DNA of 64,000 bases from Aquincola tertiaricarbonis. Lineage in GTDB: Bacteria > Pseudomonadota > Gammaproteobacteria > Burkholderiales > Burkholderiaceae_C. The stretch is from positions 2,542,001-2,606,000 of the forward strand of contig NZ_CP097635.1 of assembly GCF_023573145.1 (NCBI RefSeq). Reading direction: 5' to 3'. This document shows, in pieces, positions 10,778-46,424 of this stretch; within the stretch, counting starts at the first letter, position 1, and each line of letters opens with the position of its first letter. Below the pieces are notes generated by a model. The model had not been told where the DNA came from and made no database searches. It saw only the letters and a list, made by a program, of their open reading frames with translations. Both the position numbers and the translations under genes were made by a program.

Positions 10778-10781
10778 CGCG

Positions 10782-28848: not shown

Positions 28849-28980
28849 CGACGATTCCCCCTCCGGCTGTTGGCGGCCAGGGCGTGTTGCCCAGGCCTGC
28901 CGCGACCTTAGGGAGCCGGTGCCGGAGGCGCATGTCCCAAATGGGATGGGCGAGGGAAAGTGCGCAGGCGGCTGGCTGCC

Positions 28981-29952
28981 TCAGGCCGTGGCGGCCTGCC
29001 GGTTTGCCAGCTGGCGGATCACGTCGATGAAGGCCTGGGCGGCGGTGCTCGGCGGCTCACCCTGCAGGGTGATGAGGCCGTAGTCGGGCATGCGGTCGGG
29101 CAGCTCGCCGGCAATGCGGGTCAGCAGCCCACGCCGCACGTACTTGTCGACCAGCGCGGCCGGCTGCAGCGACAGCATGTGGGTGCTCTGCATCAGCTCG
29201 AGCGCGAAGAGGAAGGACGGTGTCTCGACGATGCCGGAGGTGAGGGCCAGGCCGGTGCGGCTGAAGATGTCGTCCGACACCTTGCGCAGCGCCGTGGTGG
29301 TCGGGTACAGGATCCACGGCCAGTTGGACAGCTCGGTGAGGCTTGGCGCCTGCACGCCGCGCAGCGGGTGGTGCGTGCCGGCGGTGATCTGCAGGCGCTC
29401 GCCGGCCAGCCGCTCGTAGTGGAACTGGTCGCGCTGCGACTCGTCGGTGTAGCGGCCGATCATCAGGTCGATCTTGCGCTCGGCCAGCCACACGATCAGC
29501 TGGTCGCTGCTCTGTTCCAGCACCTTGAGCACCAGCAGCGGCCGCAGGCGCTGCAGCTCGGCCACGGCCGCGGTCAGCAGGTGCGCCGCCGACCCCGAGA
29601 TGGCGCCCACGGTCAGGTGGCCATGCCCCCCTTGCTTGAGCGTGCTGAACTCGTCGACGAACTTGCGGTGGCCGTCCAGCGCCGCATGTGCATAACGCAG
29701 CGTGAACAGGCCCAGCTCGTTGGGCCGCATGCCGCGCGGCAGCCGGTCGAAGAGGCGTGACTCCAGCATGTCCTCGATGTCCATCAGCACCTTGGTGGCC
29801 GCCGGCTGGGTCATGTGCATCTGCTCGGCGGTCAGCCGCAGGTTGCGCGTTTTGCCCAGGATGTCGAGGAACTGCAGGTGGCGGAAACGCAGCCGCGAGA
29901 CCTGCGCCAGGGCCAAGGGTTTACCTGCAGGCGGGTCTGAAGTCATCACCAT
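28981..29952 (-). CDS. LysR-family regulator of the xylonate/TRAP operon (inferred target)
   Basis: 323 residues: winged helix (RLRFRHLQFLDILGKTRNLR, AEQMHMTQPAATKVLMDIED) and an effector domain (HGHLTVGAISGSAAHLLTAA, SRTGLALTSGIVETPSF), the profile of regulators of carbon-source transport genes. It is divergent from the TRAP operon across 143 bases and is the only regulator facing it. The 5-3-5 repeat CCATT-TGG-AATGG at 29949-29961 overlaps the start codon and could be part of an autoregulatory site. Effector unknown; xylonate or a related sugar acid is likely by context. Confidence 0.88.
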   Translation of the reverse strand: MVMTSDPPAGKPLALAQVSRLRFRHLQFLDILGKTRNLRLTAEQMHMTQPAATKVLMDIEDMLESRLFDRLPRGMRPNELGLFTLRYAHAALDGHRKFVDEFSTLKQGGHGHLTVGAISGSAAHLLTAAVAELQRLRPLLVLKVLEQSSDQLIVWLAERKIDLMIGRYTDESQRDQFHYERLAGERLQITAGTHHPLRGVQAPSLTELSNWPWILYPTTTALRKVSDDIFSRTGLALTSGIVETPSFLFALELMQSTHMLSLQPAALVDKYVRRGLLTRIAGELPDRMPDYGLITLQGEPPSTAAQAFIDVIRQLANRQAATA

Positions 29953-29991
29953 TTGGAATGGATGCTAGCGAAAAAGTCAGTGGACCGGGCC

Positions 29992-30003
29992 GGGGTGCAC
30001 CCC
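29992..30003. promoter_or_regulatory. Perfect 12-bp palindrome in the divergent LysR/TRAP promoter region
   Basis: GGGGTGCACCCC lies about midway between the LysR gene and dctP, in the 143-base gap that must hold both promoters. It is a candidate operator; the weak TTGGAAT/AAAAAG stretch upstream (29953-29980) is the only AT-rich part of the gap. No recognised LysR T-N11-A box could be assigned with confidence. Confidence 0.3.
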
Positions 30004-30095
30004 TAGCCTTCAGGCCCACGAAGAACAGCCCCGCAGAGGGCCGGCACGTCGCGGCAATGCCGCCGCGCACCGCACATCACCATTCCGGAGACATC

Positions 30096-31115
30096 ATGCA
30101 ATTCAGATCACTCGCTCTGGCCGCGACCCTGCTGGCCGCCCTGGCCGTTCCCGCTGCCGCGCAGGTCAAGGAACACGTGTTCAAGATCGGCACCGGCCTC
30201 AGCGAGGACCATCCGCAGGCCCAGTCGCTCAAGTACTTCGCCGACCAGCTGGCGGCCAAGAGCGGCGGCAAGCTGCAGGCCAAGGTGTATGCCAGCGGTT
30301 CGCTGGGCAACGATGTCAGCATGACCTCGGCCCTGCGCGGCGGCACGCTGGAGATGACGATCCCCGACAGCTCCACGCTGGTGACCCTGGTCAAGCCCTT
30401 CGGCGTGCTGAACTTTCCGCTCACCTTCAACAACGAGCAGGAAGCCGACGCGGTGCTGGACGGCCCCTTCGGCCAGAAGCTGCTGGCCAAGCTGCCCGAG
30501 AAGGGCCTGATCGGCCTGGGCTTCTGGGAGAACGGCTTCCGCCACGTCACCAACTCGCGCCGCCCGGTCAACAAGGCCGATGACCTGAGCGGCCTGAAGC
30601 TGCGCGTCATCCAGAGCCCGCTGTTCCTGGACACCTTCACCGCGCTGGGCGCCAACGCCACGCCCATGCCCTTCACCGAGCTGTACACCGCGATGGAACA
30701 GGCCGCGGTGGACGGGCAGGAGAACCCGCCGGCCACCATCCTGGCCAGCAAGTTCTACGAGGTGCAGAAGCACCTGGTGCTGTCGCGCCACATGTACAGC
30801 GCCTGGGTGCTGCTGATGTCCAAGAAGACCTGGGACGGCCTGTCGGCGGACGAGCAGAAGATCGTGCAGGAAGCGGCGCGCGAAGCCACGCTGTACGAGC
30901 GCAAGACCATCCGCGCCTTCTCCGACCGCGCGCTGGCCGACCTGAAGAAGGCCGGCATGCAGATCACCGAGCTGCCGCCGGCCGAGCAGGCCAAGATGCG
31001 CAGCAAGCTGCAGCCGGTGCTGGCCAAGTTCAGCAAGGAGTTCGGCGAGGACACCACCGCCGAGATGAACGGCGAGCTGGTCAAGGTGCGCGGCGGCTCC
31101 GCGGCCGCCAAGTAA
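30096..31115 (+). CDS. TRAP transporter substrate-binding protein (DctP family)
   Basis: 339 residues with a signal peptide (ATLLAALAVPAAAQ). DctP-family hallmarks are FKIGTGLSEDHPQAQSLKYF, the conserved Arg that salt-bridges a substrate carboxylate (KLRVIQSPLFLDTFTALGAN), and YTAMEQAAVDGQENP. It captures an organic acid in the periplasm for the DctQM permease encoded four genes on. A CCGGAG box is 5 bases from the ATG. First gene of the operon that runs at least to dctM and probably to the xylanase. The substrate is likely a sugar acid such as xylonate, since xylD and xylX are inserted between dctP and dctQM. Confidence 0.92.
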   Translation: MQFRSLALAATLLAALAVPAAAQVKEHVFKIGTGLSEDHPQAQSLKYFADQLAAKSGGKLQAKVYASGSLGNDVSMTSALRGGTLEMTIPDSSTLVTLVKPFGVLNFPLTFNNEQEADAVLDGPFGQKLLAKLPEKGLIGLGFWENGFRHVTNSRRPVNKADDLSGLKLRVIQSPLFLDTFTALGANATPMPFTELYTAMEQAAVDGQENPPATILASKFYEVQKHLVLSRHMYSAWVLLMSKKTWDGLSADEQKIVQEAAREATLYERKTIRAFSDRALADLKKAGMQITELPPAEQAKMRSKLQPVLAKFSKEFGEDTTAEMNGELVKVRGGSAAAK

Positions 31116-31181
31116 GGCGCTTCGCCCGCAGGCGGCCGACGCCGCCTGCCTTTCCCTTCCACTTTGCAAGCGACCACAGCC

Positions 31182-32963
31182 ATGGACAAGCCGGCTGGTC
31201 GGCGCTTTCGCTCGCGCGATTGGTTTGCCGATCCCCATCGTTCCGACATGACGGCGCTCTACCTCGAGCGCTTCATGAACTACGGCCTGACGCCCGAGGA
31301 ATTGCGCTCGGGCCGGCCCATCATCGGCATCGCGCAGACGGGCAGCGACCTGTCGCCGTGCAACCGCATCCACCTGGAGCTGGCGCGGCGTGTGCGTGAT
31401 GGCATCCGCGACGCCGGCGGCATTCCGATGGAATTCCCGGTGCACCCCATCTTCGAGAACTGCCGCCGCCCCACCGCGGCGCTGGACCGCAACCTGGCCT
31501 ACCTGGGCCTGGTGGAGGTGCTGTACGGCTACCCCATCGATGCGGTGGTGCTGACCACCGGCTGCGACAAGACCACGCCGGCCGGCATCATGGCCGCGTG
31601 CACCGTCGACATCCCGGCCATCGTGCTGTCGGGCGGGCCGATGCTCGACGGCTGGCATGGCGGCGAGCTGGTGGGCTCGGGCACCGTGATCTGGCGCAGC
31701 CGCCGGCAGCTGGCGGCCGGCGAGATCGACGAGGACGAGTTCCTGCAGCGCGCCTGCAGCAGCGCCCCTTCGGCCGGCCACTGCAACACCATGGGCACGG
31801 CCTCGACGATGAACGCGGTGGCCGAGGCCCTGGGCCTGTCGCTGCCCGGCTGCGCGGCCATTCCGGCGCCTTACCGCGAACGCGGGCAGATGGCGTATGA
31901 GACCGGTCGGCGCATCGTGGGCATGGCGCATGAGGACCTGCGGCCCTCGCGCATCCTCACCCGCGAGAGCTTCCTCAACGCGCTGTCGGTGGTCAGCTGC
32001 GCCGGCGGCTCCAGCAATGCGCAGGTGCACATCATGGCCATGGCCCGCCATGCCGGGGTGGAGCTGCGGCCCGCCGACTGGACCGAGCAGGCCTACGACC
32101 TGCCGCTGCTGCTGGACATGCAGCCGGCCGGGCGCTTCCTGGGCGAGCGCTTCTTCCGCGCCGGCGGCGTGCCCGCGCTGATGTGGGAGCTGCAGCAGGC
32201 CGGCCGGCTCCATGGCGATTGCGCCAGCGTCACCGGCCGCACCGTGGCGCAGAACATCGAAGGCCGCCAGGCCACCGACCGCGAGGTGATCCGGCCCTTC
32301 GACCTGCCGTTGATGGAGAAGGCGGGCTTCCTGGTGCTGTCGGGCAACCTGTTCGACTTCGGCATCATGAAGACGTCGGTGATCTCGCCGAACTTCCGTG
32401 AGCGCTACCTGAGCCGGCCCGGCCACGAAGGCGTGTTCGAGGCGCGCGCCGTGGTGTTCGACGGTGCCGACGACTACCACGCCCGCATCAACGACCCGGC
32501 GCTGGAGATCGACGAGGGCTGCATCCTGGTGATGCGCGGCGCCGGCCCCATCGGCTGGCCCGGCTCGGCCGAGGTGGTGAACATGCAGCCGCCCGATGCG
32601 CTGATCCAGCGCGGCGTACGGACGCTGCCCACGCTGGGCGACGGCCGCCAGTCGGGCACGGCCGACAGCCCCTCCATCCTCAACGTGTCGCCCGAAAGCG
32701 CCGTCGGCGGCGGCCTCAGCTGGCTGCAGACGGGCGACCTGATCCGCATCGACCTCAACGCCGGCCGCTGCGATGCGCTGGTGCCGGCCGAAGAGATCGC
32801 ACGCCGCCAGCGCGAGCTGCCGCCGCCACCGGTGCCGGCCAGCCAGTCGCCGTGGGAGGAGATCTACCGCAGCCACACCGGCCAGCTGGTGGACGGCGCC
32901 ACGCTGGACATGGCCCTGAAGTACCGCCGCATTGCCGAACGCACGCCGCGCCACAACCACTGA
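31182..32963 (+). CDS. xylD: D-xylonate dehydratase (IlvD/EDD family)
   Basis: 593 residues from the ATG at 31182; six more codons with a TTG are possible and the ribosome site is weak either way. The protein follows Caulobacter-type XylD closely at motif level: RRFRSRDWF, DMTALYLERFMNYG, PIIGIAQTGSDLSPCNRI, the Cys ligands of the Fe-S cluster in TGCDKTTP, and SAPSAGHCNTMGTASTMN. The enzyme dehydrates D-xylonate to 2-keto-3-deoxy-D-xylonate, the first committed step of the Weimberg pathway. L-arabonate or other sugar-acid dehydratases are the alternative, but the paired XylX-like gene favours xylonate. It stands 66 bases after dctP and 21 bases before xylX. Confidence 0.9.
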   Translation: MDKPAGRRFRSRDWFADPHRSDMTALYLERFMNYGLTPEELRSGRPIIGIAQTGSDLSPCNRIHLELARRVRDGIRDAGGIPMEFPVHPIFENCRRPTAALDRNLAYLGLVEVLYGYPIDAVVLTTGCDKTTPAGIMAACTVDIPAIVLSGGPMLDGWHGGELVGSGTVIWRSRRQLAAGEIDEDEFLQRACSSAPSAGHCNTMGTASTMNAVAEALGLSLPGCAAIPAPYRERGQMAYETGRRIVGMAHEDLRPSRILTRESFLNALSVVSCAGGSSNAQVHIMAMARHAGVELRPADWTEQAYDLPLLLDMQPAGRFLGERFFRAGGVPALMWELQQAGRLHGDCASVTGRTVAQNIEGRQATDREVIRPFDLPLMEKAGFLVLSGNLFDFGIMKTSVISPNFRERYLSRPGHEGVFEARAVVFDGADDYHARINDPALEIDEGCILVMRGAGPIGWPGSAEVVNMQPPDALIQRGVRTLPTLGDGRQSGTADSPSILNVSPESAVGGGLSWLQTGDLIRIDLNAGRCDALVPAEEIARRQRELPPPPVPASQSPWEEIYRSHTGQLVDGATLDMALKYRRIAERTPRHNH

Positions 32964-32984
32964 CCGAGCACGAGGAAACCTTCC

Positions 32985-34198
32985 ATGACTGCAACAACGA
33001 TGGCCGTGCCGGCGCGCACCGATGGCCTGCATCCCGCGCTGCCGCAGGACGGACTGGCCGGCACCCTGGTGGGGCGCGTCTGGCGGCCCGGTGCCCCGGC
33101 CGGCCCGGCCGTGGTGGCGCTGCGCGCCGATGGCGTGTTCGACGTGAGTGCGCATTTCCCCACCATGAGCACGCTGCTGGAAGCCGCACAGCCGGCGCAG
33201 GCCGTGACCGCGGTGATCGGCGAGCGGCTGTGCAGCGTCGATGCGTTGCTGGACAACAGCCGCCCCGAAGGCCGGGACGAGGCCATGCCCTGGCTGCTGG
33301 CACCCTGCGACCTGCAGGTGGTCAAGGCGGCCGGCGTGACCTTCGCGGCCAGCATGATCGAGCGCGTGATCGAGGAACAGGCCGGCGGCGACGCCAGCCG
33401 CGCGCAGGGCCTGCGCAGCCAGGTGCAGGCCCTGATCGGCGACCGCCTGTCCGACATTCGCCCCGGCTCGCCGCAGGCGATGGCGCTCAAGCAGCTGCTG
33501 CAGGAGCGCAAGCTGTGGTCGCAGTACCTGGAGGTGGGCATCGGGCCCGATGCCGAGGTGTTCACCAAGTCGCCGGTGCTGGCCTCGGTGGGGCATGGCC
33601 AGGACATCGGCATCCGCGCCGACTCCGACTGGAACAATCCCGAACCCGAGGTGGTGCTGGCGGTCAACAGCCGCGGCGGCATCGTGGGCGCGGCGCTGGG
33701 CAACGACGTGAACCTGCGCGACATCGAAGGCCGCAGCGCGCTGCTGCTGGGCAAGGCCAAGGACAACAACGCCTCCTGTGCCATCGGCCCCTTCATCCGC
33801 TGTTCGACGGCAGCTTCGGCCTCGAGCAGCTGCGCAGCGAGACGGTGCACCTGGAGGTGGCCGGCGACGACGGCTTCACCCTGCGCGGCATCAACACCAT
33901 GGCCAGCATCAGCCGCGACCCGACCGAGCTGGTGGCGCAGACCCTGGCCTGCCACCAGTACCCCGACGGCTTCATGCTGTTCCTGGGCACGCTCTTCGCG
34001 CCCACCGAAGACCGCGACCAGCCCGGCGGCGGCTTCACCCACAAGCTGGGCGACGTGGTCACCATCCACAGCCACTGGCTGGGCAGCCTGCGCAACCGGG
34101 TGACGCATTGCGAATCGGCCCCGCCCTGGCGCTTCGGGCTGCGCGCCTTCATCGGCAACCTGGCCGCCCGCGGGCTGCTGCAGGGGGTGCGGCTGTGA
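32985..34198 (+). pseudogene. xylX: 2-keto-3-deoxy-D-xylonate dehydratase (XylX, FAH superfamily), frameshifted
   Basis: The protein follows the XylX pattern up to codon 272 (VGIGPDAEVFTKSP, NNPEPEVVLAVNSRGG, GNDVNLRDIEGRSALLLGK, NNASCAIGPFIR). The frame then shifts: the expected continuation LFDGSFGLEQL, ISRDPTELVAQT, HQYPDGFMLFLGTLFAP, GGGFTHKLGD is in another frame, ending at 34198. At 33798-33801 CGC is followed by TGTTC where one more C would restore Arg-Leu-Phe. Unrepaired, translation would stop at 34103 with a wrong 100-residue tail; repaired, it gives 404 residues. The restored stop overlaps the DctQ start (GTGA), so the restored frame is the ancestral one. The metal-binding fold would dehydrate KDX to 2-oxoglutarate semialdehyde. 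Real mutation or sequencing error cannot be separated here. Confidence 0.88.
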
Positions 34199-34797
34199 GC
34201 CTGCTCGATGCTGCGATCGACCGCTTCTGCCGTGCCATCGACGTGCTGATCGCCGCCGCGCTGGCCGTGATGGTGGTGCTGGTGTTCGGCAACGTGGTGC
34301 TGCGCTATGCCTTCAATTCCGGCATCGCCGCCAGCGAGGAGCTGTCGCGCTGGCTGTTCGTGTGGCTGTGCTTCATGGGCGCGGTGGCCGCGCTGAAGGA
34401 CGGCGGGCACCTGGGCACCGACATGCTGGTGGCGCGGCTGCCGGTGGCCGGCAAGAAGCTGTGCCTGGTGCTGGGCCATCTGCTGATGCTGTACGTCACC
34501 TGGCTGTTCCTGGACGGCAGCTGGCAGCAGGCCCGCATCAACATGGACGTGGAAGCGCCGGTGACCGGCGCGCCGGTGGCCATCTTCTATGCCACGGGCG
34601 TCTTCTTCTCGCTGTGCGCCGGTGTGCTGCTGCTGTTGCAGCTGGTGCGCGTGCTCACCGGCCGGGTGGCCGATGACGCGCTGGTGATGGTCAAGGAATC
34701 GGAAGAGCAGGCCGAGCTGGAAAGCCTGCAGGCCGAGCTGGCCCGCGCCGAAGCACCGTCCGACGACACCCGCCCACCTTCCGCGATCGGCCGCTGA
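34195..34797 (+). CDS. TRAP transporter small membrane subunit (DctQ)
   Basis: 200 residues from a GTG at 34195 that overlaps the restored xylX stop. Four membrane spans are visible: LIAAALAVMVVLVFGNVVLR, SRWLFVWLCFMGAVAAL, LCLVLGHLLMLYVTWLF, and GVFFSLCAGVLLLLQLV. The family signature YAFNSGIAASEELSRWLFVW is present. The long hydrophilic tail (ESEEQAELESLQAELARAEA) is longer than usual and could form a coiled coil. It pairs with DctM to move the substrate held by DctP. Confidence 0.9.
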   Translation: MSLLDAAIDRFCRAIDVLIAAALAVMVVLVFGNVVLRYAFNSGIAASEELSRWLFVWLCFMGAVAALKDGGHLGTDMLVARLPVAGKKLCLVLGHLLMLYVTWLFLDGSWQQARINMDVEAPVTGAPVAIFYATGVFFSLCAGVLLLLQLVRVLTGRVADDALVMVKESEEQAELESLQAELARAEAPSDDTRPPSAIGR

Positions 34798-34799
34798 CC

Positions 34800-36077
34800 A
34801 TGACCGTCTTCATCTTTCTCGGCAGCCTCGTCGGTGCGATGGCGCTGGGCATTCCCATCGCCTATGCGCTGCTGGCCAGCGGCGTGGCGCTGATGTGGCA
34901 CCTCGACCTCTTCGATGCGCAGATCCTGGCGCAGAACTTCATCAACGGCGCCGACAGCTTTCCGCTGCTGGCGGTGCCCTTCTTCATGCTGGCCGGCGAG
35001 ATCATGAACGTCGGCGGGCTGTCGCAGCGCATCGTCAACTTCGCGCTGGCGCTGGTGGGCCATGTGAAGGGCGGGCTGGGCTACGTGGTGGTGCTGGCGG
35101 GTTGCCTGCTGTCGGCGCTGTCGGGATCGGCCGTGGCCGATGCCGCGGCACTGACGGCGCTGCTGCTGCCCATGATGATCAAGGCCGGGCACAAGAAGGA
35201 AGTCTCGGGCGGGCTCATCGCGGCCTCCGGCGTCATCGGCCCCATCATCCCGCCCAGCATCGGCTTCGTCATCTTCGGCGTCACCGCCAACGTGTCCATC
35301 AGCAAGCTGTTCATCGCCGGCATCGTGCCCGGCGTGATGATCGGCGTGGGCCTGGCGCTCACCTGGTGGTGGGTGGGCCGCAAGGAGACGCTGGCGCTGC
35401 CGCCGCGCAAGACGGGCGCCGAGGTCTGGAAGGCCGCCCGCGAATCGGTCTGGGCGCTGATGCTGCCGGTGTTCATCCTGGTGGGCCTGCGCATGGGCGT
35501 GTTCACGCCCACCGAGGCGGCGGTGGTGGCGGCGGTGTATGCGCTCTTCGTGGCCCGCGTGGTGTACCGCGAACTCACGCTGCGTGCGCTGCTGCAGATC
35601 TTCGTCACGGCGGCCCGCACCACGGCGGTGGTGATGTTCCTGGTGGCCGCGGCCATGGTGTCGGCCTGGCTCATCACCGTGGCCAACCTGCCGGCCCAGG
35701 TGGTGGACCTGCTGCGCCCGCTGCTGGACAACCAGACGCTGCTGCTGATCGCCATCATGCTGCTGGTGATGCTGGTGGGCACGGCGATGGACATGACGCC
35801 CACCATCCTGATCATGACGCCGGTGCTGATGCCGCTGGTCAAGGCCGCCGGCATCGACCCCATCTACTTCGGCGTGCTGTTCATCGTCAACAACTCCATC
35901 GGTCTCATCACCCCGCCGGTGGGCACCATCCTCAACGTGGTGGCCGGCGTCGGCCGCATGAGGATGGACGAGGTCACCCGTGGCGTGCTGCCTTTCATGG
36001 CCGCCCAGTTCGTGGTGATGTTCATCATGGTTCTGTTCCCCCAGACCGTGCTGGCGCCCTTGCGCTGGTTCTATTGA
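34800..36077 (+). CDS. TRAP transporter large permease (DctM)
   Basis: 425 residues, the standard DctM length, with about 12 membrane segments. Typical segments include GALLGIPIAYALLASG-like first span (MALGIPIAYALLASGVALM), FPLLAVPFFMLAGEIMN, GSAVADAAALTALLLPMMIK, SGVIGPIIPPSIGFVIFG, GTAMDMTPTILIMTPVLMPL and NNSIGLITPPVGTILNVV. It is the Na+-coupled transport channel of the TRAP system. It starts 2 bases after dctQ and is followed 65 bases later by the cohesin gene on the same strand. Confidence 0.93.
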   Translation: MTVFIFLGSLVGAMALGIPIAYALLASGVALMWHLDLFDAQILAQNFINGADSFPLLAVPFFMLAGEIMNVGGLSQRIVNFALALVGHVKGGLGYVVVLAGCLLSALSGSAVADAAALTALLLPMMIKAGHKKEVSGGLIAASGVIGPIIPPSIGFVIFGVTANVSISKLFIAGIVPGVMIGVGLALTWWWVGRKETLALPPRKTGAEVWKAARESVWALMLPVFILVGLRMGVFTPTEAAVVAAVYALFVARVVYRELTLRALLQIFVTAARTTAVVMFLVAAAMVSAWLITVANLPAQVVDLLRPLLDNQTLLLIAIMLLVMLVGTAMDMTPTILIMTPVLMPLVKAAGIDPIYFGVLFIVNNSIGLITPPVGTILNVVAGVGRMRMDEVTRGVLPFMAAQFVVMFIMVLFPQTVLAPLRWFY

Positions 36078-36142
36078 GCACCGCCGGCATGGGTGCGCCC
36101 ATGTCGTTCAACCGGGCGCAAGCCCACCAGGAGGAGACAAAG

Positions 36143-36736
36143 ATGAAGAAATCTGCACCCATCGCGGCCCGTGCCGCGGGCGCCTGCGCGCTGGCGCTGT
36201 CGCTGCTGTCGACCGCGCACGCGGTGCCCGTGCTCGAGATGTCGGCGGCCAGCACGGCCACCGGCTTCGAGCTCACCGTGCAGGCCCGCGACGTGGTGGA
36301 CCTGTTCGCCTACGGCTTTTCGCTGAGCTTCGACCCGGCGCTGCTGAAGCTGACCGCCGGCACCGAAGGCGCCTTGCTGCGCCAGGGCGGCGACACCTTC
36401 TTCCGTGCCGGCGTCTTCGACAACGATGCCGGCAGCGTCACCTACACCCTGGGCACGCTGATCGGGCAGGTGCCCGGTGTCACCGGCAGCGGCCAGCTGG
36501 CCACCTTCTCGTTCGACGTCAAGCAGGCGGGCCTGGCCAACTTCAAGTTCACCGATGTGGCGCTGGTGGATGGCAGCGGCGCGGACATCAGCGTGGAGAC
36601 GCGCAACCTGGTCACCGCTGTGCCCGAGCCGGCCAGCATCGCGATGTTCGCGGTGGGCCTGCTGGCGCTGCCGCCGGCTGCAAGCCCGCGCGCGCTGAAG
36701 CCCCTTCCTCGTCACATGACCCCAAGGACCTCATGA
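36143..36736 (+). CDS. Cohesin-domain protein with PEP-CTERM motif
   Basis: 197 residues. A signal peptide (ALALSLLSTAHA) is followed by a single cohesin-like jelly-roll at about 28-155 (LFAYGFSLSFDPALLKLTAG, VTYTLGTLIGQVPGVTGSG, QLATFSFDVKQAGLANFKF, VALVDGSGADI). Cohesins bind dockerins in cellulosomes. The tail has VPEPASIAMFAVGLLAL, the PEP-CTERM motif and membrane span, but then reads PPAASPRALK instead of an Arg cluster; the +1 frame reads CRRLQARAR and stops at 36698, so the tail may be frameshifted. The read frame does overlap the xylanase ATG (ATGA), which argues it could be genuine. An AGGAGGAG box supports the start. The next gene is a dockerin-bearing xylanase, so this is its likely surface receptor. 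Confidence 0.85.
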   Translation: MKKSAPIAARAAGACALALSLLSTAHAVPVLEMSAASTATGFELTVQARDVVDLFAYGFSLSFDPALLKLTAGTEGALLRQGGDTFFRAGVFDNDAGSVTYTLGTLIGQVPGVTGSGQLATFSFDVKQAGLANFKFTDVALVDGSGADISVETRNLVTAVPEPASIAMFAVGLLALPPAASPRALKPLPRHMTPRTS

Positions 36737-39534
36737 TGTTCAGCAGTTTCGACATCAAGCGTGTGTGCCTGGCGATGCCCGCCCTGTTCGCGGCGGCCGG
36801 CGGTGCACTGGCGGCCGAGCGGCCCGCCAACCCGGCCGACTGGCCGGCGCTCAAGGACGTGTACAAGAACCACTTCTTCATCGGCAGCACCAACCTCAGC
36901 GCCTCCAACTTCGCGGCCGGCGTGGTGCCGGGCGAAAACTCGGTGGCGGCGATGACGCTCAAGCACTTCAACGCGGTGACACCCAGCAACGCGATGAAGC
37001 CCGACTTCTGGAACGGTGGCAGCAGCAACCCCAGCCCCAGCTTCCTCACCAACTTCAGCAACGGCATCAATGTCGACATCGCCGCCGCCAATGCCCGCGG
37101 CGTGAAGGTGACCGGCCACACGCTGCTGTGGCACAACCAGTCGGGCCAGTGGCCCGCGCCCAACGTGCTCACGCCCAATGGCGGCTGGGAAACCCCGTGG
37201 GACTACGCGATGGCGCGGTCGAACCTGGAGTACTACATCCGCACCGTGGCCGGCCACTTCGACAAGGAGCCGCAGAAGACCTACGCCTGGGACGTGGTGA
37301 ACGAGGCCTTCAAGGACAACCCCGACAACCCGCACGACTGGCGCAGCGCGCTGCGCTCGGGCTATAGCCCCGAGGAGCGGCCCTCGCGCTGGGCGCAGGC
37401 CTATGCCAAGGGCGGCAAGAGCTGGGACTACATGTATGACGCGTTCTTCTTCGCGCGGCAGAACACCACGGCCATCCTGAACTACAACGACTTCAACGAC
37501 AACGAGCGCGCCTCCAAGGCCACGGCCATCGCGTCCATGGTCAAGGAGTTCAACGAGCGTTACGCGGCCGACGTGGCCGCCGGCCGGGCGCGCCAGCTGC
37601 TGGATGCCAGGGGCCAGCCGCGCCCGCTGGTGGACGTGATCGGCACGCAGGGCCACTGGGACATGCGGCTGAACATGGACGCCTTCGAGCGCACCATCCG
37701 CACCTATCTGGAAACCGGCGCCAACGTCGACCTGACCGAGCTGGACCTGGCGCCGACGCTGGGCCTGGACAAGGGCCAGCGCATCCAGAACGGCCCCGAG
37801 ATGAACGAGCTGTTCCTGGAGCAGGGCGTGCAGTACGCCAAGCTCTTCAGCCTGCTCAAGGAATACGCGGCGGGTTCGGCCGGCCGCCACCCCGAGTTCA
37901 AGGGCGGCGTGCACCGTGTCACCTGGTGGGGCATGACCGATCCGGGCTACCACACCAACGGCTACCCCTGGTCGGCCGTCGGCCAGCCCAAGGAGGCCTT
38001 CTGGGCAGCCGCCAACCCCGAGCAGTACCTGGCCGATGCCGGCCTGCCCACCAACGGCGTGACGGCCAGCTTCCGGTACGGCGGCGAGACCTTCAAGGTC
38101 CGCACCTGGGGCGGCAGGAACGCGCAGGCGATGATCGACATCGCCGTGCCGGCCGGCACCAAGAACGTGAGCTTCAACGCCGACAACGTGGTGCTGCCGG
38201 CGGGCTTTGCGGTCGAGCGCATCCAGTACAGCCCGGCGGACTGCGCGGTGATTCCGGGCAAGCCCTGCCATGTGACGGTGACCGCGCGTGGGGCCGACCC
38301 GGCACCGGCCTACAAGGCCGTGGGTGTGGAGAACACGGCCACCTTCGTGCTGAGCTTCGGCCAGATGGCGGTCTCGTGGTTCCCGGAGGGCAACACCCTG
38401 GAGGCGCCGCTGTCGTATGCCGAGGTCCGCTTCAGCGATGGCGTGACCAGGTTCAAGCAGTACAAGACCTATTACGGCGGTGACGGCCTGGCCCGTGCCA
38501 CCGGTGCCACCGAACTGAAGGCAGTGCCCAGGCACGGCCGGCAGACGCTGGTGCTGAAGTCGCAGGATCCGATCACCGGACCGGCCGGCCTGCGCTTCGC
38601 GAAGGACGCCACCACCGAAAAGGCCTGGCGCGTGGTCAAGCGCATCGAGCCGGGGCGCACCTACATGGTGGTGTCGGCGGAGTCCAGTTTCCAGGACGGT
38701 GGCGAGAGCAAGGGCTTTGCGCTGACCAACCGCACCAAGCCGGCCACCACCGCGCCGGCCGTGCCGGAATCGCTGTCGCGCACGCCGGTGGTGCTGCGGG
38801 GCGACACGCTGTGGCCGCTGCGCAATGCCAACGCCCCCGAGACCGAGCCCGCGCTGGCGCAGGACAACCTGAAGTTCATGTTCGAGGCTGCCAGGAGCCC
38901 CGCCGCCGGCCCCTACGCCGCGCAAGAGGGCCATACGATGCTGGCCTACATCCACGGCACCAACGTGTACCCGCACGTGGTGTTCCGCGGCAACGGCGCC
39001 ACCGGCACCGTGGCGGGCGGGCAGCATTCGCTCATCACCCGGCAGACCAACGGGGCCGAGGGCTCGCAGATCGCCGAGCGCGCGCTGGACCAGGCGGTGT
39101 GGTTCCACACGCCCATCGACGCCGGCAGCGGCGAGATGAAGATGTTCCTGTTCTCGGGCCGGGGTGGCAGCAACCAGCACTACGCGCTGAAGGAAGTGGA
39201 CAGCGGCGTCACGCCCAACCGTGACGGCGGCAACGCGATCAGCCAGCGCCAGGGGGCGACGGGCGGCTTCGTTGCGCTGCAGGCCGCAGGTCCCGACGCG
39301 GGCACGCGCGTGAAGCTGTATGCCTACGACATGGCGGCCTATGTGTCCGGCGACGTCAACGGCGACTCGGTGCTCAACTGCGGCGACCTGAGCGCGGCCA
39401 CCGCTTCGGTGGGCAAGCGCAGCGGCCAGCCCGGCTTCGTGCCGGCCGCCGACTTCGACCAGAACGGCGTGGTCGACATCCGCGACATCGCCGCCATCTC
39501 GCGGCTGTTGCCGGTGGGCACCACCTGCCGTTGA
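36733..39534 (+). CDS. Secreted GH10 xylanase with C-terminal dockerin-like domain
   Basis: 933 residues. A signal peptide ends near GGALAAE. Residues about 35-440 are a GH10 barrel: [13 protein letters not shown], acid/base Glu191 in WDVVNEAF, nucleophile Glu335 in DLTELDLAP, and [10 protein letters not shown] near the end. About 440-865 is a beta-rich region of unknown family. Residues about 870-933 form a dockerin with two EF-hand-like loops: [12 protein letters not shown] and [12 protein letters not shown], with Asp/Asn at the metal positions. The enzyme hydrolyses beta-1,4-xylan. The ATG overlaps the cohesin stop and AAGGA precedes it, so the two are translated together. A second ATG follows one codon on. 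Its products would feed xylonate catabolism encoded upstream. Confidence 0.93.
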
Positions 39535-39556
39535 CGGCGGGCGGCTGGCGCAGGCC

Positions 39557-42500
39557 TCAATGCGCCAGCTGGCCCTGGCGGGCATGCGGGGCTAGCGGCA
39601 GCTCGAACCAGAAGCAGCTGCCCACGCCCAGGGTGCTGTCGAAGCCGATGCGCCCGCCCATCGCTTCGACGATGCCCTTGCACACCGCCAGGCCCATGCC
39701 GGAGCTGGCGCTGGCGGTGTGCGCGGCACCGCTGGTCGATTGGTAGAAGGCCTTGAAGATGTGCTGCTGCTCGTCGGCCGCGATGCCGGTGCCGGTGTCT
39801 GTGACGCTGAAGCGCACAGCATCGTGGCCGGTCGCGCCGCTGCGGCCGACATGCAAGCGGATGTGCCCCTGCCGCGTGAACTTGAAGGCGTTGCCGACCA
39901 GATTGGTCAACACCTGGCGCAGGCGCTGCCCATCGGTGTCCAGGCTGTCGGGTACCTGCTCGTCGATCTGCGCCCGCAGCTCGACCCGGCCCGATGAATG
40001 CTGCAGCTGGAACAGCTCCACCAGGGCCTGCACCAGGGGCTGCAGCGGCACCGGTGCGATGTGCAGCCGCAGCTGGCCGTGTTCCAGCTCGCCCAGGTCC
40101 ATGATGTCGTTGACCAGGCCCAGCAGCGATTCGGCCGAGGCCTTGGTGAGCATGGCCAGGCGGCGCTGGCGCTCGTTCAGGTTGGAGGCCAGCAGCATGG
40201 CCGTGAGCCCCATCACGCCGCCCAGCGGCGTGCGCATGTCGTGGCTCACGCGGGCCAGGTCGATGGTGCGGCCAGTGGGTTTGCCGTTGCTCGGCGGTGC
40301 CGGCTCAAGGGCGGCCATGCGTTGGGCATGGCGGGCCAGCAGCCGTTCCACCACCGCCAGCGCGCCCCAGCGCAGGCCGCTGGCCCAGGCCAGGCTGAAC
40401 CAGTGCTGGGTCGCATCGCGCTGGCCGGTGTCCAGCAAGGCTTCGCTGCAGGCCTGCTCGATCAGCACCTGGTCGCGCAGGAAGCCGCCGGCCTGCGCGC
40501 CCTCGCGCGCGCTGTCGAACAGCGCCAGCGCCTCCGTCATGCGGCCACCGCGGGCCGCCAGCACCGCGTCCACCAGCTGCAGCTTGTGCGCCACGTTGGC
40601 CGGCGCCGCCCGGGCCCAGGTGGCCAGTTGATCGCGGTGGGCCTGGCCGGCACCGGCCGGCGCGCTCAGGCTGGCCAGCACCAGCAGGTCGATGGACAAC
40701 ACCGTGGCGGTGCCGTTGGCCGCCAGCGGCAGCGCCTGCTGGCAGGCCTGCCAGCAGGCCTCGCCATCGCCCCGGTGCCAGGCCAGCAGCGCCCGCAGCG
40801 TGTGCGCGGTGAACAGCGAGAAGGCGTTCTGCGCCTGCGCCAGCCGGGCCAGCTCTTCCTCTTCCTGGAAGGCGGGGCCGTCCAGGCGCAAGGGCTGGGC
40901 CTCGGGGTCGCCGCGCAGCGCGCGCAGGCCCTGCAGCCACACGCGGCAATGGTGGTGCGAGAAGTCGTGGCCGAACTGCTGCACGGTGCGGGTGCGCAGG
41001 CCATGGCCGGCCAGCAGCTCGTCCAGCGGCGCCATGCCGAAGGCCTTGTCGCAGTAGAGGAAGGCGGCATAGCCCAGGTACTCCTGGTCGCCGGCCACCT
41101 GGCAGTCTTCATAGGCCTGCAGCAGCGGCTGCAGCTGTTGCTGCAGCGGCAGCCGCCAGTGCCGCAGAAAGCCCAGGCACAGCACCCGCACCTTGCAGGC
41201 CAGCGGCGGATGCTGCAGGCGACCCAGCATCGACAGCGCCAGCTCGCCGGCGTCGAAGGCCGCGGGCGGCTGCCCCATGCCGCACAGCGTCAGGCCGTAG
41301 TTGGTCCAGGCCAGCGCCGTCCAGTCGGAGGCCGGCCACTGCATCGCCAGCCCGATCATCGTGCGGATGACGCGGGCATACATCTCGAACGAGGTGATGA
41401 AGGCGCAGGGCGTCAGCGCCACCAGCACGCGGTGGGCGCAGTCCACGCGCGGGTGGCTGCCCGGGGTGCCGGCGGCGGGCGCCTGGTGCGGCACCGGTGG
41501 CCAGGGCGTGTCGTCGCCCAGCGTCATCAGCGGCACGCCCAGCGCGTCCAGCGTCTGTTGGCCCAACTGCAGGGCCTCGGCCAGGCGGTTGCGCGCCAGC
41601 AGCGTCAGCAGCCGCAGCTCGTCCAGCCGGGCCGATTCCAGCGCATCGGGCCGGCATGCCGCGGCCTGGTCGATCAACTCGTCGGCCACGTCGAAGCGGG
41701 CCGCGGCGCAGGCCGCCTCGGCCGCGCGCCGGTACAAGGCCTGCCTGTGTTCGCTGGTGGCTTCGCCCAGGTGCATGCGGCTGGCCTGCACCGCCCGCAG
41801 GAAGTATTTCAGCGCCTCGTCGGTGGCGCCCTTGGCGCTGGCCAGCTGACCGGCCCGCTCGTTGAGCCGGGTGGCGGTGGCCGCGTCCAGGCCGCCCGCC
41901 GGTGTCTGCTGCACGTCGTTGAACTGCTGGACGATGGTGAACAGGTACTGGTTCAAGCGGCCTTCATCCACCGCATGCTGCAGCAGGCCGGTGCCCAGCC
42001 GCACCCGCAAAGCGTCGCGTCGGCCCTGGTCCACGCGTTCGTAGGCGGCCTGCTGCACCGCGTCGTGCAGGAAGCGGATGGTCAGCGTCTCGTCGCAGGC
42101 CGGCTCGTCATCGGTGGGCAGCAGCAGGCCGGCGGCCAGGGCGGGTGCCAGGTCGCGGCACACCTGCAGCACCGAGCCGCCGCGACCGGCGGCCAGGCTG
42201 TCCACCGACCAGGCCGCGCCCAGGTGGGCCGCATCGCTGAGTGTGGCCTGCGTGGCCTCGGGCAGACCCTGCAGCCGCGCCTGCACCAGGTCGGCCGGTG
42301 TGCGGTGGGCCGACAAGGCCTGCAGCCGCGCCAGGTCGATGCGCCAGCCGCCGTCTTCGGCATCGGGTGTGATGGCGCGGAACTGCTCGGCCGCGCGCAG
42401 CAGCTGCAGCGTCATGAAGGGGTTGCCCTCGCCCTGCTGCAGCAGCAGCCCGGCAGCGCTGTCGATCGGCTGGTCCGGGCCCACCTCGGCCGTGGCCAGC

Positions 42501-43984
42501 AGCCGCGCGATGTCCGCCGCCGACCAGGGCTGTATCTGCAGCCGCCGCAGGTCGATGCCCGGCTGCTGCGACAGCCGGTGCAGCCAGCGGTGCAGCGCAT
42601 GACCTTCGTCGATGGCCTCGCTGCGAAAGGCGCCCAGCACCAGCAAGCGGCCCATGCGCGGCTCGCTCAGCAGGCCGTCGAGCAGGGCCAGCGAGCGCGG
42701 GTCGGCCCATTGCAGGTCGTCGATGAACAGCACCAGTGGCTCGGCACCGGCAGACAACGCCACCACCAGCCGGCGCAAGGCCAGCTCGAAGCGGATGCGG
42801 CTGGCATCACCGCCCAGCTCGGGCGCGGGTGGCTGCGGGCCGATCAGCTGCGCCAGCCAGGGCAGCGCAGGGCTGAGCACGCCCGCCATGGCGCCCAGCT
42901 CGGCCTCGATGGCGGTGGCCACCGCGGCCCTGGCCGAGCTGGCCAGCCGGCCGCAGTCGGCCAGGGCCGCGTCCAGCGCTTCCAGCAGCGGTGCCAGCGG
43001 TGACTGGCTGCCGTACTGGTTGAATTTGCCCGCGGCCACACGGGCGCCCAGGTCCTGCATCGTGTGGCAAGCGGCCTGCGTCACCGCCGTCTTGCCGATG
43101 CCTGACCGGCCTTCGACGATGGCCAGCAGCGGCGGGCCGGCGCTGCCGGCGGCCTGGCCGCCTGGGCGTTCCACCGCGGCGAAGGCCTGCAGCATCTGCT
43201 CGACCTCGTGCGTGCGGCCGATGCGCTCCTGCGGCAGGTGCCAGCAAGGCGGCCGGCCCAGCGCCGCCGGCGACGTGCGCGGTGCGCCCTGCACCAGTGC
43301 TTCGCACAAGGCCTGGGCGCTGCGGTAGCCGCCCGGACCGCCGGCGCGCCACAGCGCCAGCAGCACCTGCCGCAGCAAGGGGTCGGGCGCCAGTTCGATC
43401 AGCGGCGCCAGCTGCGCAGCGCTGGCGGGCCGGCCGTCTTGTTGCAACCAGTGGCGCTGCCCGCTGAGCCGCCAGCTCAGCAGGGCGCCCAGGGCCACCA
43501 GGTCGGTGGTGGCACGCAGCCGGCCCTGTGCAGATTCCTGCACCCGCAGAAAGCCGCCGCGGTCGAAATCGGTGAGCCAGGCCTGGCCGCTCAGCGGCTG
43601 CCACAGCACCGTCTCAGGCGCCAGGCGGCCATGCACGATGCCGCTGCGCTCCAGCCCGTGCAGCACGCGGCCGATGGCCAGCGCCAGGGTCAGCAGTTCA
43701 TCGCGGGGCGCCGGCCGATCGGTCCGGGCCTGGGCCTGCAGCGTGGCCGGCCAGTGGTCCAGGTGCAGCGATTCGCGGTAGTGCAGGCCGCCCGCATCGG
43801 CCTGCAGGGCGGTGGGCCGCGGTGCGCCAGCGCCGTCGACGGCGGCGCTGAGCAGTGCATGCCGGCGCAGCCGCTGGCGCTGCCCCCGTTCGGCGGACGA
43901 CCAGCCCACGTCGCAGGCGCGTACCACCGTCGATCCTTCATGCAGCAGGCGCCAGTTCAACGACGGCATTCGCCATGGGTCCAT
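39557..43984 (-). CDS. Giant signalling protein: pseudokinase, AAA ATPase, helical repeats, histidine kinase
   Basis: 1475 residues. The first 250 resemble a Ser/Thr kinase but have HGRLAPETV where the catalytic HRD loop should be and DFDRG for DFG, so it is probably inactive. An AAA/NB-ARC-like ATPase follows with a P-loop ([12 protein letters not shown], about 290) and Walker B-like [12 protein letters not shown]. About 600-1220 is helical, TPR/MalT-like. The C-terminus has HisKA ([17 protein letters not shown], about 1245) and HATPase boxes ([28 protein letters not shown]). No receiver domain. The layout matches multidomain sensors that bind a ligand through the repeats. A motif in its promoter recurs upstream of the exopolysaccharide operon, so it probably regulates that cluster. 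Start chosen at the first ATG; ribosome site weak. Confidence 0.85.
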
Positions 43985-44112
43985 GGTCGTGACATTCCTG
44001 CGGGGCCCGCGGGTGGCGGGCGCGAAGGATCAACGGGGGCGCGTCACGCCTGGCGTCGAGGACCGCTCAGCGGGGTGTTCGCCGTATTCGCAACCAACAG
44101 CCTTGCTTGCTG

Positions 44113-44148
44113 GTCACTTTAGTCTTGGTCGACTAATTCCCGGCAAAA
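44113..44148 (-). promoter_or_regulatory. Promoter-like element upstream of the giant kinase
   Basis: Read on the minus strand, CCGGGAATTAGTC (44143 to 44131) is followed 6 bases on by GACTAAAGTGAC (44124 to 44113). The same arrangement stands upstream of the glycosyltransferase gene. TTGCCG and GACTAA, 16 bases apart, could be -35 and -10 boxes. The region lies 129-164 bases before the kinase ATG and inside a local AT-rich patch. Confidence 0.4.
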
Positions 44149-44165
44149 CCCCGCTGGCGTCCGGG

Positions 44166-46400
44166 TCACAGCGGGTAGGTCAGGAACTTCAGCGTGGTGC
44201 CGCCTTCACCGGTGACGATCCAATTGTCGCTGTCCCAGCTGACGGTGCCCAGGCCATAGATCACCAGCGGCAGGGTGTAGCGCTTCTTGGGCAGCAGCCA
44301 GGTCACGTCGGCCAACCCCTTGGGGTTGGTGGCGGTGATGGTGCTCAGCGCGCCGAAGGACGAGGTGCTCCAGCTGGTCTGCAGGCGGCGCTGCGAGAAG
44401 TCGGCCACCTGCGTCATGGTGTACCAGCGGAAGCGGTTGGCCGCCTGCAGGCCGTCGGCGCGGTTGAGCAGCGCGTTGATCGGCTTCAGGTGGCCGGCCG
44501 CGCCGGGCGGATGGTTGTAGAACATCCGGTTGGTGCGGTGGTTCACCACGAAGCTCTGCAGGTCGATCAGCCACTGGCCCGACTGCTGGTCGCTGATGCC
44601 GAACTCGTCGAACTCCTCGAAGGTGGCGTACTTGCCGTTGGGCGTGACCGGGATGGCCCACAGGTTCTGGGTCAGCCGCGCGCCATCGCGCCAGGGCCGC
44701 ACGGCCGAGGCGCCGCCGTCGCCCACGGTGTAGAAGGCCACCACGCCGCGCTGCTCCAGCCAGCGCACCGCCCAGGCCGGGTTGTTGCCGGTGGGGGCCG
44801 AGTACTCGCGGATCTTGCGGCCGGTGACCCTCTCGATGGCGTCGAAGTTCTTCGACAGCAGCGAGGTGAGGTCGGGCGTGTTGGACTCGTTGGCGAAGGT
44901 GCCCCAGTAGTCGTGGATCCAGCCGCCGTGCGAGCCGATCTCGTGGTTCACCGGCAGCGAATAGGCATAGCGGCCCACGTTGCCCACGCGGCGCAGCAGG
45001 TCCTGCGACTGCGCATTGGCATCCAGATTCATGCCGTTGCCGTCGCCGAAGTTGATGACGTCCGGGCCGGCGGTGAGGTGGATGCTGAAGGGGCCGCGGC
45101 GCAGCACGCGGGTGCTGTCCAGCAGGCCCTTGGTGTCCACCAGCAGGTCGTCGCCGTCGTCGATGTGCCAGTTGTAGATCAGGCCGCCGCGGCCGCGCGG
45201 CTGCGCCGACAGCGTGGCGATGCCCACTTCCTCGCGCGCGAACTGGCTGAGGAAGCCGTGCAGCGGCGCGCTGTCGGTGCCCAGGGCCTTGAAGTAGCCC
45301 AGCGGGATGTTGACGAACAGCACCTGGCCGCTGCCGTAGGCGCGTTTGCCGGCCACCACGCCGTGGTCGGGCGACGAGAGGTAGACGGTGCCCGGGAACT
45401 GGCCGGTGGTCACGTAGTGGAAGTAGCCCAGCGGGCCGTAGCCGTAGCCGCTGATGGCCTGCAGCGAGGTGTCGGTGGCGGTGCTGCCCACGCTGCGTTC
45501 GATGGCCACGGTGCCGTCGGCGCTCAGCACTGCGTCCACGTCGTCGTTGCCGCGGAACCAGCGGTCCAGGCTCAGGGAGGCGGTGGCGGCGGTGGCCTGG
45601 GCGCGGCGGGTGCCCAGGCGGGTGGCGGCCGACGATTCGGTGCCGATGCCCAGCACGTCGCGCAGCGCACGCAGCCGCTGCCGGCGCACGTTGGCCGAGC
45701 CGTCGTCGATGGCGCGGCTGCGGCGGCGCACCGTCTCGCGCATGGCCTGGGTGGCGCCCGGGTCGGCGACGGTGGTGGGCACGAAGGTGGCGGTGGCCAC
45801 GCCGGCCACGCTGGTGACGGGCGCATAAGGCGTGTACTTGCCTGGCGGGATGGACAGCGCGTCCAGCCGTGCCTTGGTGCCGACGACGGGACCGAAGCCC
45901 ACCATGGTGGTGGCACCGGCGCCGTTGTCCCAGTTGACGTAGTTCACGCCCACCATGTCGGAAAAGCGCGAGGGGCCCGACAGCGGATAGAAGCCGGCTT
46001 CGGTCTGCGCGCCGGCGTCGTACACCAGCATCAGCTTGCCGCCCAGGTAGGCGTACTGCTTGACGGCGGCCACCACCGCATCGCTGGCGCGGATGTGGGC
46101 GCTGTCGGGCACGATCAGGCCGCCGATGCTGGCGGCGCTGTTGCGGCCCAGGGCCAGGAAGGCCGAGTCGGTGATCACGTCCAGCCGGATGCCTTCTTCG
46201 GCGGCCGAGTCGGTCCACACCTGCACCTGCCAGCTGCTGAGGCTGGCGCCATCGGGCACCAGCAGCGTCAGGCGGTCGCGCGGCGGGGCGGCCAGCGCGG
46301 CGCTGCAGGCGGTGGCCAGCAGCGTGGGCGCCAGCAGGCGGGCCAGGCCGCGTTGAAGCCGTGCCAGGCGGCCGCGGCGGATGGGTTGTGGTTGTTGCAT
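44166..46400 (-). CDS. Polysaccharide deacetylase-like exported protein (active-site motif intact)
   Basis: 744 residues with a signal peptide (LLATACSAALAA). The N-terminal half is alpha/beta and includes LTLLVPDG, LIVPDSAHI and GKLMLVYDAGA, suggesting a Rossmann-like sugar-binding part. The second half has polysaccharide-deacetylase-like motifs: NWHIDDGDD (about 408-416, matching the two Asp of the NodB DDG), NHEIGSHGGWIHDYWG (about 485-500, the metal His pair) and IREYSAPTGNNPAW. It is the last gene of the exopolysaccharide cluster. An AGGAGG box is 4 bases before the ATG. It is a paralog of 50545-52440. It probably removes acetyl groups from the exported polymer; specificity is unknown. 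Confidence 0.75.
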   Translation of the reverse strand: MQQPQPIRRGRLARLQRGLARLLAPTLLATACSAALAAPPRDRLTLLVPDGASLSSWQVQVWTDSAAEEGIRLDVITDSAFLALGRNSAASIGGLIVPDSAHIRASDAVVAAVKQYAYLGGKLMLVYDAGAQTEAGFYPLSGPSRFSDMVGVNYVNWDNGAGATTMVGFGPVVGTKARLDALSIPPGKYTPYAPVTSVAGVATATFVPTTVADPGATQAMRETVRRRSRAIDDGSANVRRQRLRALRDVLGIGTESSAATRLGTRRAQATAATASLSLDRWFRGNDDVDAVLSADGTVAIERSVGSTATDTSLQAISGYGYGPLGYFHYVTTGQFPGTVYLSSPDHGVVAGKRAYGSGQVLFVNIPLGYFKALGTDSAPLHGFLSQFAREEVGIATLSAQPRGRGGLIYNWHIDDGDDLLVDTKGLLDSTRVLRRGPFSIHLTAGPDVINFGDGNGMNLDANAQSQDLLRRVGNVGRYAYSLPVNHEIGSHGGWIHDYWGTFANESNTPDLTSLLSKNFDAIERVTGRKIREYSAPTGNNPAWAVRWLEQRGVVAFYTVGDGGASAVRPWRDGARLTQNLWAIPVTPNGKYATFEEFDEFGISDQQSGQWLIDLQSFVVNHRTNRMFYNHPPGAAGHLKPINALLNRADGLQAANRFRWYTMTQVADFSQRRLQTSWSTSSFGALSTITATNPKGLADVTWLLPKKRYTLPLVIYGLGTVSWDSDNWIVTGEGGTTLKFLTYPL

Positions 46401-46424
46401 GGTTCCTCCTTCTCGGGTGTGTTG

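Follow-up and report, generated by a model that had tools for sequence, protein, structure and literature searches.

A gene for a cohesin with a PEP-CTERM-like tail adjoining a dockerin-bearing xylanase gene in Aquincola tertiaricarbonis, and the recurrence of such pairs with other client proteins

Background

In the cellulosomes of Clostridium thermocellum, Acetivibrio and Ruminococcus, dockerins at the C-terminus of glycoside hydrolases go together with a multi-cohesin scaffoldin, and anchoring relies on S-layer homology (SLH) domains or sortase, while in NagJ/NagH of Clostridium perfringens (2ozn) the cohesin belongs to an enzyme. Here, a gene pair of Aquincola tertiaricarbonis is described from a stretch of 64,000 nucleotides (contig NZ_CP097635.1, positions 2,542,001 to 2,606,000; hereafter the window), in which the gene for a cohesin protein with a PEP-CTERM-like tail is followed by the gene for a glycoside hydrolase family 10 (GH10) xylanase with a C-terminal dockerin, and which probably encodes a private docking pair. 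Both folds and the C-terminal position of the dockerin on a glycoside hydrolase are shared with the cellulosomes. Pairs of the window type differ from these in that a PEP-CTERM tail would be the anchor, each anchor gene adjoins the gene of its own client and the clients are mostly not cellulases, and no multi-cohesin scaffoldin is seen by Pfam in the window genome. Unlike the cohesin of NagJ/NagH, that of the window forms a protein of its own, which ends in a putative sorting tail.

Non-cellulosomal cohesins are also found in archaea, including Methanococcus, the anaerobic methanotrophic archaea (ANME) and Archaeoglobus fulgidus, whose cohesin (2xdh) is the best fold match of the modelled window cohesin. 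ANME genomes contain archaeosortases, exosortases, cohesins and dockerins (PMC5244752), archaeal cohesins and dockerins bind and have been suggested to attach proteins to the outer layer (PMC9012536), and Methanococcus cohesins have been suggested to anchor extracellular hydrogenases (PMC11452385). Enzyme anchoring by such cohesins is not new as an idea, being already in print for archaea (PMC9012536, PMC11452385). In the accessible parts of the three papers, a PEP-CTERM cohesin is nowhere described as paired with a dockerin enzyme encoded next to it, and two of them (PMC5244752, PMC9012536) call the non-cellulosomal role of cohesins and dockerins unknown or not clear. The tail, XrtA/XrtB and their associated genes are common to the window genome and the PEP-CTERM/exosortase sorting system (Haft 2006, PMC1569441); in the accessible text of that paper most PEP-CTERM proteins are without recognisable homology, and the words 'cohesin' and 'dockerin' are absent from its main text. 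Across the open-licence full-text literature searched, dockerin (or 'cohesin domain') was not found together with PEP-CTERM, and cohesin, dockerin and exosortase occurred together only for ANME archaea (PMC5244752). Nor was a docking role for a PEP-CTERM protein found in this literature, as searched partly via the best 25 of 119 and the best 12 of 2,649 matches. While one public source names a protein (P0023) 'Cohesin domain/PEP-CTERM motif', so that the domain combination is already in annotation, the broader cohesin-dockerin pairing is described nowhere in the literature searched.

The cohesin and xylanase genes of the window

The xylanase gene (36733..39534, + strand) codes for a protein of 933 aa with a signal-peptide-like start. 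Residues 40-428 (36850..38016, +) match the GH10 catalytic domain (PF00331, E 2e-45), and E191 and E336, which we take to be the GH10 acid/base and nucleophile, are invariant in nine aligned sequences (alignment A5); given this domain and both glutamates, the enzyme is a predicted GH10 xylanase. Residues 430-870 (38020-39342, +) form a stretch of about 440 residues without a Pfam match that is well conserved in relatives. The dockerin (39349..39507, +) scores 24.3 bits against PF00404 (curated cut-off 22.9) and has two Ca2+-type loops carrying a putative Ca2+ ligand pattern, a Cys in loop 1 and a C-terminal GTxC. Its AF2 (AlphaFold2) model matches dockerin folds, and its relatives are present in alignments A1 and A4.

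The cohesin gene (36143..36736, +) codes for 197 aa as sequenced, beginning with a signal-peptide-like N-terminus (MKK...STAHA; 36143..36223, +) recognised by eye. The cohesin domain (36245..36583, +) was located by a profile search of the window genome (place G000:C1:2578245-2578583, G000 being this genome) and reaches 29.1 bits against PF00963, over the curated cut-off of 24.1. Its predicted fold is the cohesin beta-sandwich, with 2xdh as the top Foldseek match, while phmmer against solved structures returned no cohesin but two weak matches to a Ser-Asp-rich fibrinogen-binding protein (E 0.04 and 0.09). A PEP-CTERM motif and the onset of a hydrophobic stretch (36617..36667, +; PF07589) follow. 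The domain identities put forward in the earlier note are thereby borne out by Pfam scores over cut-off, by matches of the predicted structures to both folds and by the two dockerin loops. A simple pattern scan of 35901-36150, upstream of the cohesin gene, found no sigma-54 motif (an idea taken from Haft 2006), and tblastn of the window cohesin against PLSDB gave no match at E 1e-5 that would indicate plasmid spread.

Recurrence of the pair in other genomes

All three Pfam cohesins of the window genome adjoin a dockerin-like gene, the partners being the GH10 gene, an 831-aa protein with two dockerin stretches (locus L008) and a metallo-beta-lactamase (MBL)-fold hydrolase (L009), the degenerate dockerin end of which is missed by Pfam and caught by the A4 profile. 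Behind the L008 pair, a further gene (~10480-11178, +) weakly resembles a cohesin (14.9 bits against a cut-off of 24.1), perhaps making up a cohesin-dockerin-cohesin trio. Across 120 genomes of the family, the only count made without ascertainment via dockerins, there are 19 Pfam cohesin places in 14 genomes, comprising 11 small PEP-CTERM proteins, four large frames near prepilin-like genes and four giant frames. A dockerin gene is adjacent to, or one small gene away from, 10 of the 11 small PEP-CTERM cohesins, and a dockerin in a neighbouring gene was seen at none of the other eight places. By context, the large cohesin frames near prepilin-like genes are putatively secretin-like. Cohesin matches in frames of ~750-950 codons occur at L057, L059, L061, L065, L252 and many order-survey places, and those with surroundings that were read adjoin prepilin-like genes and may be secretin-like.

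With the A3 cohesin profile, the top 28 places over 319 family genomes (E <= 1.0e-12) consist of 27 small cohesins and, in G509, one large frame. All 27 small cohesins adjoin a dockerin gene, a count biased toward pairs because the A3 profile itself contains seven cohesins found through dockerins. For 23 of them the dockerin was recognised by a profile match within 3.9 kb, judged with the 49 A4 places and three PF00404 places, and for the remaining four by the neighbour gene (Pfam 26.2, 37.6, 36.7 and 17.1 bits, the last below cut-off).

A search of the contigs of named genomes with dockerin alignment A1 yielded at least 593 pattern stretches and 129 relatives, of which 80 loci were kept and 10 examined. 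A PEP-CTERM protein is adjacent at each of the seven best loci (E <= 2e-16), which belong to Pseudoduganella, Pelomonas, Massilia, Pseudorhodoferax, Duganella and two Bryobacterales (Acidobacteriota). Pfam recognises five cohesins over cut-off among six of these neighbours, with L122 at 22.9 of 24.1 bits, and the seventh locus (L121) is the G030 locus, whose cohesin is over cut-off. A like arrangement with a like tail type occurs in a genome of the same order and another family (G174). Eleven loci from the order and class surveys were examined closely, one of them (G509) from the family. In these surveys, cohesin and dockerin matches lie side by side in one giant frame (G310:C1, G310:C64 and G340:C26), and a dockerin-like frame with a type-C-like end in a genome of the same class (L301, G642) is followed by two small exported proteins, one with a cohesin match, with tails only loosely PEP-CTERM-like. 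A chance pair in one genome, the outcome that the earlier note had named as fatal to its proposal, is ruled out by this recurrence across the family and the named genomes.

Client proteins and gene arrangement

Thirty-five pairs were assembled, leaving out L121 and L124 (duplicates), G082:C44, G174, G075 and the fragmentary G078:C49. Compared all against all by blastp, the client bodies fall into 12 groups: GH10 (six pairs), M12 reprolysin-like (eight), C25 (eight), weakly beta-propeller-like (four), MBL (two) and seven single clients, including a metallophosphoesterase, a VWA7-like protein and an M20-like protein; families were assigned by Pfam for some members and by blastp only for the rest. 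A protein database adds a GH28 protein (P0034) and a beta-helix protein (P0035) with the same dockerin type as the window xylanase. With 29 of the 35 pairs having clients other than GH10, the xylonate pathway that the earlier note linked to the window pair does not appear to be the point of the system.

The client gene precedes the cohesin gene in 22 pairs and follows it in eight, and the two lie on opposite strands in five. Translational coupling had also been proposed for the window pair, and its genes do overlap by 4 nt. As a general feature it is not supported, since an overlap of this length occurs in 3/35 pairs (the window, L008 of the same genome and L270), besides one of 40 nt in L278 as called, and gaps of 38, 39, 39, 43 and 201 nt in the other five GH10 pairs rule out conserved coupling of these.

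Dockerin types and cohesin clades

Excluding L008, where the dockerin is not C-terminal, the dockerins of 34 pairs were assigned by their C-terminal ends to type A (19; Cys in loop 1 and an end GTxC or similar), type B (eight; PGPSA) and type C (seven; CTxPxC-like). Distances among the cohesins correlate with those among the dockerins (Mantel r 0.84), a value reached in none of 10,000 permutations and in 2 of 5,000 when permuting within client groups only; with 12 client-by-type units, 13 of 20,000 permutations attain the observed r of 0.743. In the cohesin tree, a single branch sets each of types A, B and C apart from the rest (supports 99/97, 100/98 and 99/96), and dockerin type changes twice in all on this tree, compared with 13.5 times in shuffles. 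The nearest cohesin from another client group shares the dockerin type in 25 of 34 cases, the misses being L077 and the eight type B rows, which must fail because type B has one client group. The matched pair of the earlier note is in keeping with this coincidence of clades and types.

The window genome and G078 belong to the same genus, and their MBL clients share 39% identity over 383 aa, but the dockerin is of type A in the former and of type C in the latter. Their cohesins fall with A and C, and a sister grouping of the two is rejected (p-AU 0.003, approximately unbiased test), suggesting a possible natural swap of dockerin and cohesin. Given the match of types with clades and this MBL case, the cohesin tends to follow the dockerin rather than the enzyme. 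Canonical type I dockerins recognise the cohesin through the two residues that precede the last ligand in either loop. Type A dockerins have Cys-x and mostly Ile/Val-Arg at these positions, and one may speculate that this pair explains a separate specificity and that the loop 1 and C-terminal cysteines clasp the dockerin by a disulfide.

Export machinery of the window genome

Exosortases XrtA (340 bits) and XrtB (345 bits) are both encoded in the window genome, the former clustered with genes for an XrtA-associated ATPase, a deacetylase, an amidotransferase and an outer-membrane protein, and the latter accompanied by its EpsI. These enzymes and their partner genes are consistent with the exosortase route envisaged in the earlier note. 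The genome has 93 listed PEP-CTERM places, 91 of them over cut-off; besides that of the cohesin gene, the window has another such motif at 21640-21711 (-; 32.0 bits).

A probable docking pair and rival explanations

The observed folds, the pairing of the genes in many genomes, the match of cohesin clades to dockerin types and the presence of exosortases are the ground for a likely explanation, namely that an exported PEP-CTERM cohesin, placed by exosortase, tethers one dockerin enzyme per anchor; binding, its Ca2+ dependence, the location and the benefit are what we infer. The xylanase, with a Ca2+-type dockerin at its end, would reach the periplasm by its signal peptide, while the cohesin protein would be exported as well and retained by its C-terminal PEP-CTERM tail. 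XrtA or XrtB would pass the cohesin to the envelope, the surface or the exopolysaccharide, where its single cohesin would bind the dockerin and fix one enzyme per anchor. The xylanase products could then enter the neighbouring sugar-acid transport and dehydratase route. Many other secreted enzymes would have been equipped with the same plug-and-socket cassette, of which there would be three or more specificity classes.

Several observations, besides the bias of the A3 count, weigh against this explanation. The window cohesin has an abnormal PEP-CTERM tail, the frame of which departs from the canonical form after GLLAL and scores 18.1 bits against PF07589 on the protein and 21.6 on the frame (cut-off 20.7). 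A canonical basic tail is found in a metagenome protein (P0003) that is 98% identical to the window cohesin over 89% of the query, and the other five GH10-paired cohesins have a normal tail. As read from the sequence, the 4-nt overlap goes with the changed frame. Both an assembly error and a real deletion are possible; assembly errors may occur in the window because an FAA-hydrolase-like gene there breaks frame too. One PEP-CTERM cohesin (G056) has no dockerin neighbour, and at L127, L128 and L130 (Stieleria, Poribacteria and Phycisphaerales), next or near in rank to the seven best named loci, no partner was seen. The G078 MBL cohesin (L084) is long-branched, and forcing it into clade A is no more than borderline rejected (p-AU 0.051). 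In 22 of the 35 pairs, the dockerin end lies next to the cohesin gene on the DNA, and co-inheritance could therefore yield matching trees without binding.

Dockerins are also commoner than cohesins or pairs in the 319 family genomes. The surroundings of all 49 A4 dockerin places were judged by A3 matches or by reading the locus, and 23 lie by a recognised cohesin, six by a weakly cohesin-like PEP-CTERM(-like) protein and 20 by neither. The 23 comprise 14 of the 19 places with E <= 5e-15 and nine of the 30 others, G075 being counted via a 201-bit match to the type C profile. Five of the 19 strongest dockerins are unpaired, two of them in G053, where no A3 cohesin match was found anywhere in the genome, one in G552 and the others on the GH10 genes of G119 and G524. 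At 61.6-69.8 bits, these five fall short of all paired ones but one: 13 of the 14 reach 86-118 bits, and the remaining one, an MBL dockerin, has 57.9. This difference is qualified by the A4 profile having been built from paired sequences. Of the 20 partnerless places, five lie in giant frames, two are cut by contig ends and one is in a frame that is broken. The remaining twelve include three places in G053, an MBL gene in each of G552 and G421, and the GH10 genes of G119 and G524. The latter two (L080 5791-8583 and L267 4461-7253) lie behind TRAP (tripartite ATP-independent periplasmic) transporter genes as in the window, with no cohesin between and an altered dockerin tail, and may represent a natural loss of the cohesin partner. 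MBL-fold or similar proteins with a dockerin-like tail are also encoded at L268 3211-4689, L269 2513-3802 and L305 4640-6196, unlike L009 without an adjoining cohesin gene.

The six weak neighbours (at G077:C6, G475, G530, G426, G075 and G387:C23) are not Pfam cohesins; four of them were compared with the three cohesin sets by hhalign, signal and tail included, and reached a probability of 98.9-99.4%. Phosphoesterase-like or uncharacterised clients at L308 5133-8662, L310 5331-8479, L311 5110-8576 and L312 5366-8624 carry a degenerate dockerin ending CITQADYxxWY, possibly a fourth type, and each is followed by a PEP-CTERM protein weakly like cohesins.

The two proteins might instead meet in the periplasm only for escort, the PEP-CTERM protein folding, protecting or exporting the enzyme before the complex or the enzyme is released. 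The many peptidase-like clients (M12 and C25, eight pairs each) could profit from such handling, and a single-module cohesin suits a chaperone as well as an anchor. However, the data hold no sign of release, the accessible text of PMC12188702 has exosortases bring PEP-CTERM proteins to the exterior, and an exopolysaccharide layer is proposed in that of PMC1569441, where no location had been tested by 2006; escort is considered unlikely. Alternatively, the dockerin could be a Ca2+-stabilised cap and the cohesin-fold protein an adhesin or sugar binder, the two being neighbours for functional or historical reasons. The dockerins retained without a found cohesin in G053, G119, G524 and G552, the 20 partnerless places of 49 and the ability of linkage to account for matching trees would all fit. 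Against this stand the co-occurrence of the two families around 12 client groups, these families being known chiefly for binding each other, and the persistence of the type match in opposite-strand and distant arrangements. For the GH10 pairs, with modules ~2.6 kb apart, and the opposite-strand M12 pairs (~3.8 kb), linkage is a less easy explanation, and mere neighbourhood seems distinctly improbable.

In a true cellulosome, a single scaffold with multiple cohesins would gather several enzymes. Its module families are those of the window pair, and giant cohesin and dockerin frames exist elsewhere in the order (G310, G340). The three Pfam cohesins of the window genome are, however, distributed one per frame (219, 682 and 263 codons), next to two Pfam dockerin genes and one degenerate one, and the paired cohesin proteins comprise only 150-234 aa across the 35 pairs. 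As far as Pfam sees, the window genome has neither a scaffoldin nor many dockerin enzymes, and because each cohesin protein is single-module, this arrangement is not a cellulosome; such an assembly is scarcely credible here, and the 'cellulosome-like' label of the earlier note is not supported where it implies a multi-enzyme scaffold.

Surrounding genes in the window

The genes upstream of the pair (30096..36077, +; NCBIfam and Pfam) would serve the uptake and use of what are probably sugar acids. They code for a TRAP solute-binding protein (30096-31115, +), an IlvD/EDD dehydratase (31248-32963, +), an FAA-hydrolase-like protein (32985-34198, +; frame broken near 33.8 kb) and the small (34195-34797, +) and large (34800-36077, +) TRAP permeases. 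The FAA hydrolase was assigned from the G078 relative, a single 399-aa frame (PF01557). Permease neighbours as in the window are also found in G078, and in G119 and G524, both without a cohesin. Two further window genes, 44166-46400 (-) and 46425-47654 (-), have no match in Pfam (E <= 1e-4) or NCBIfam (E <= 1e-5), and Rfam gave no match at gathering score over 28000-48000.

Conclusions

The observation of the earlier note, of a gene for a cohesin with a PEP-CTERM motif next to a dockerin xylanase gene, is confirmed, and its interpretation is partly supported; the window pair is one case of something wider. The docking-pair reading may be extended, on balance and with less assurance, to a general enzyme-display system owned by exosortase bacteria of at least two phyla. 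In this, a portable cassette made up of a PEP-CTERM cohesin with one module and the dockerin matching it would fix one chosen enzyme, be it a xylanase, a pectinase-like protein, a metallo- or cysteine peptidase, a phosphoesterase or another, to the surface or exopolysaccharide. Such cassettes would form at least three and perhaps four specificity classes, and the Cys pair of type A (loop 1 and C-terminus) could act as a disulfide clasp. If the pairs bind, Gram-negative bacteria would become a source of cohesin-dockerin pairs that are small and possibly orthogonal, and exosortase export could be followed by enzyme readout. Some PEP-CTERM proteins would then be sockets for defined enzymes, each with a testable job and partner.

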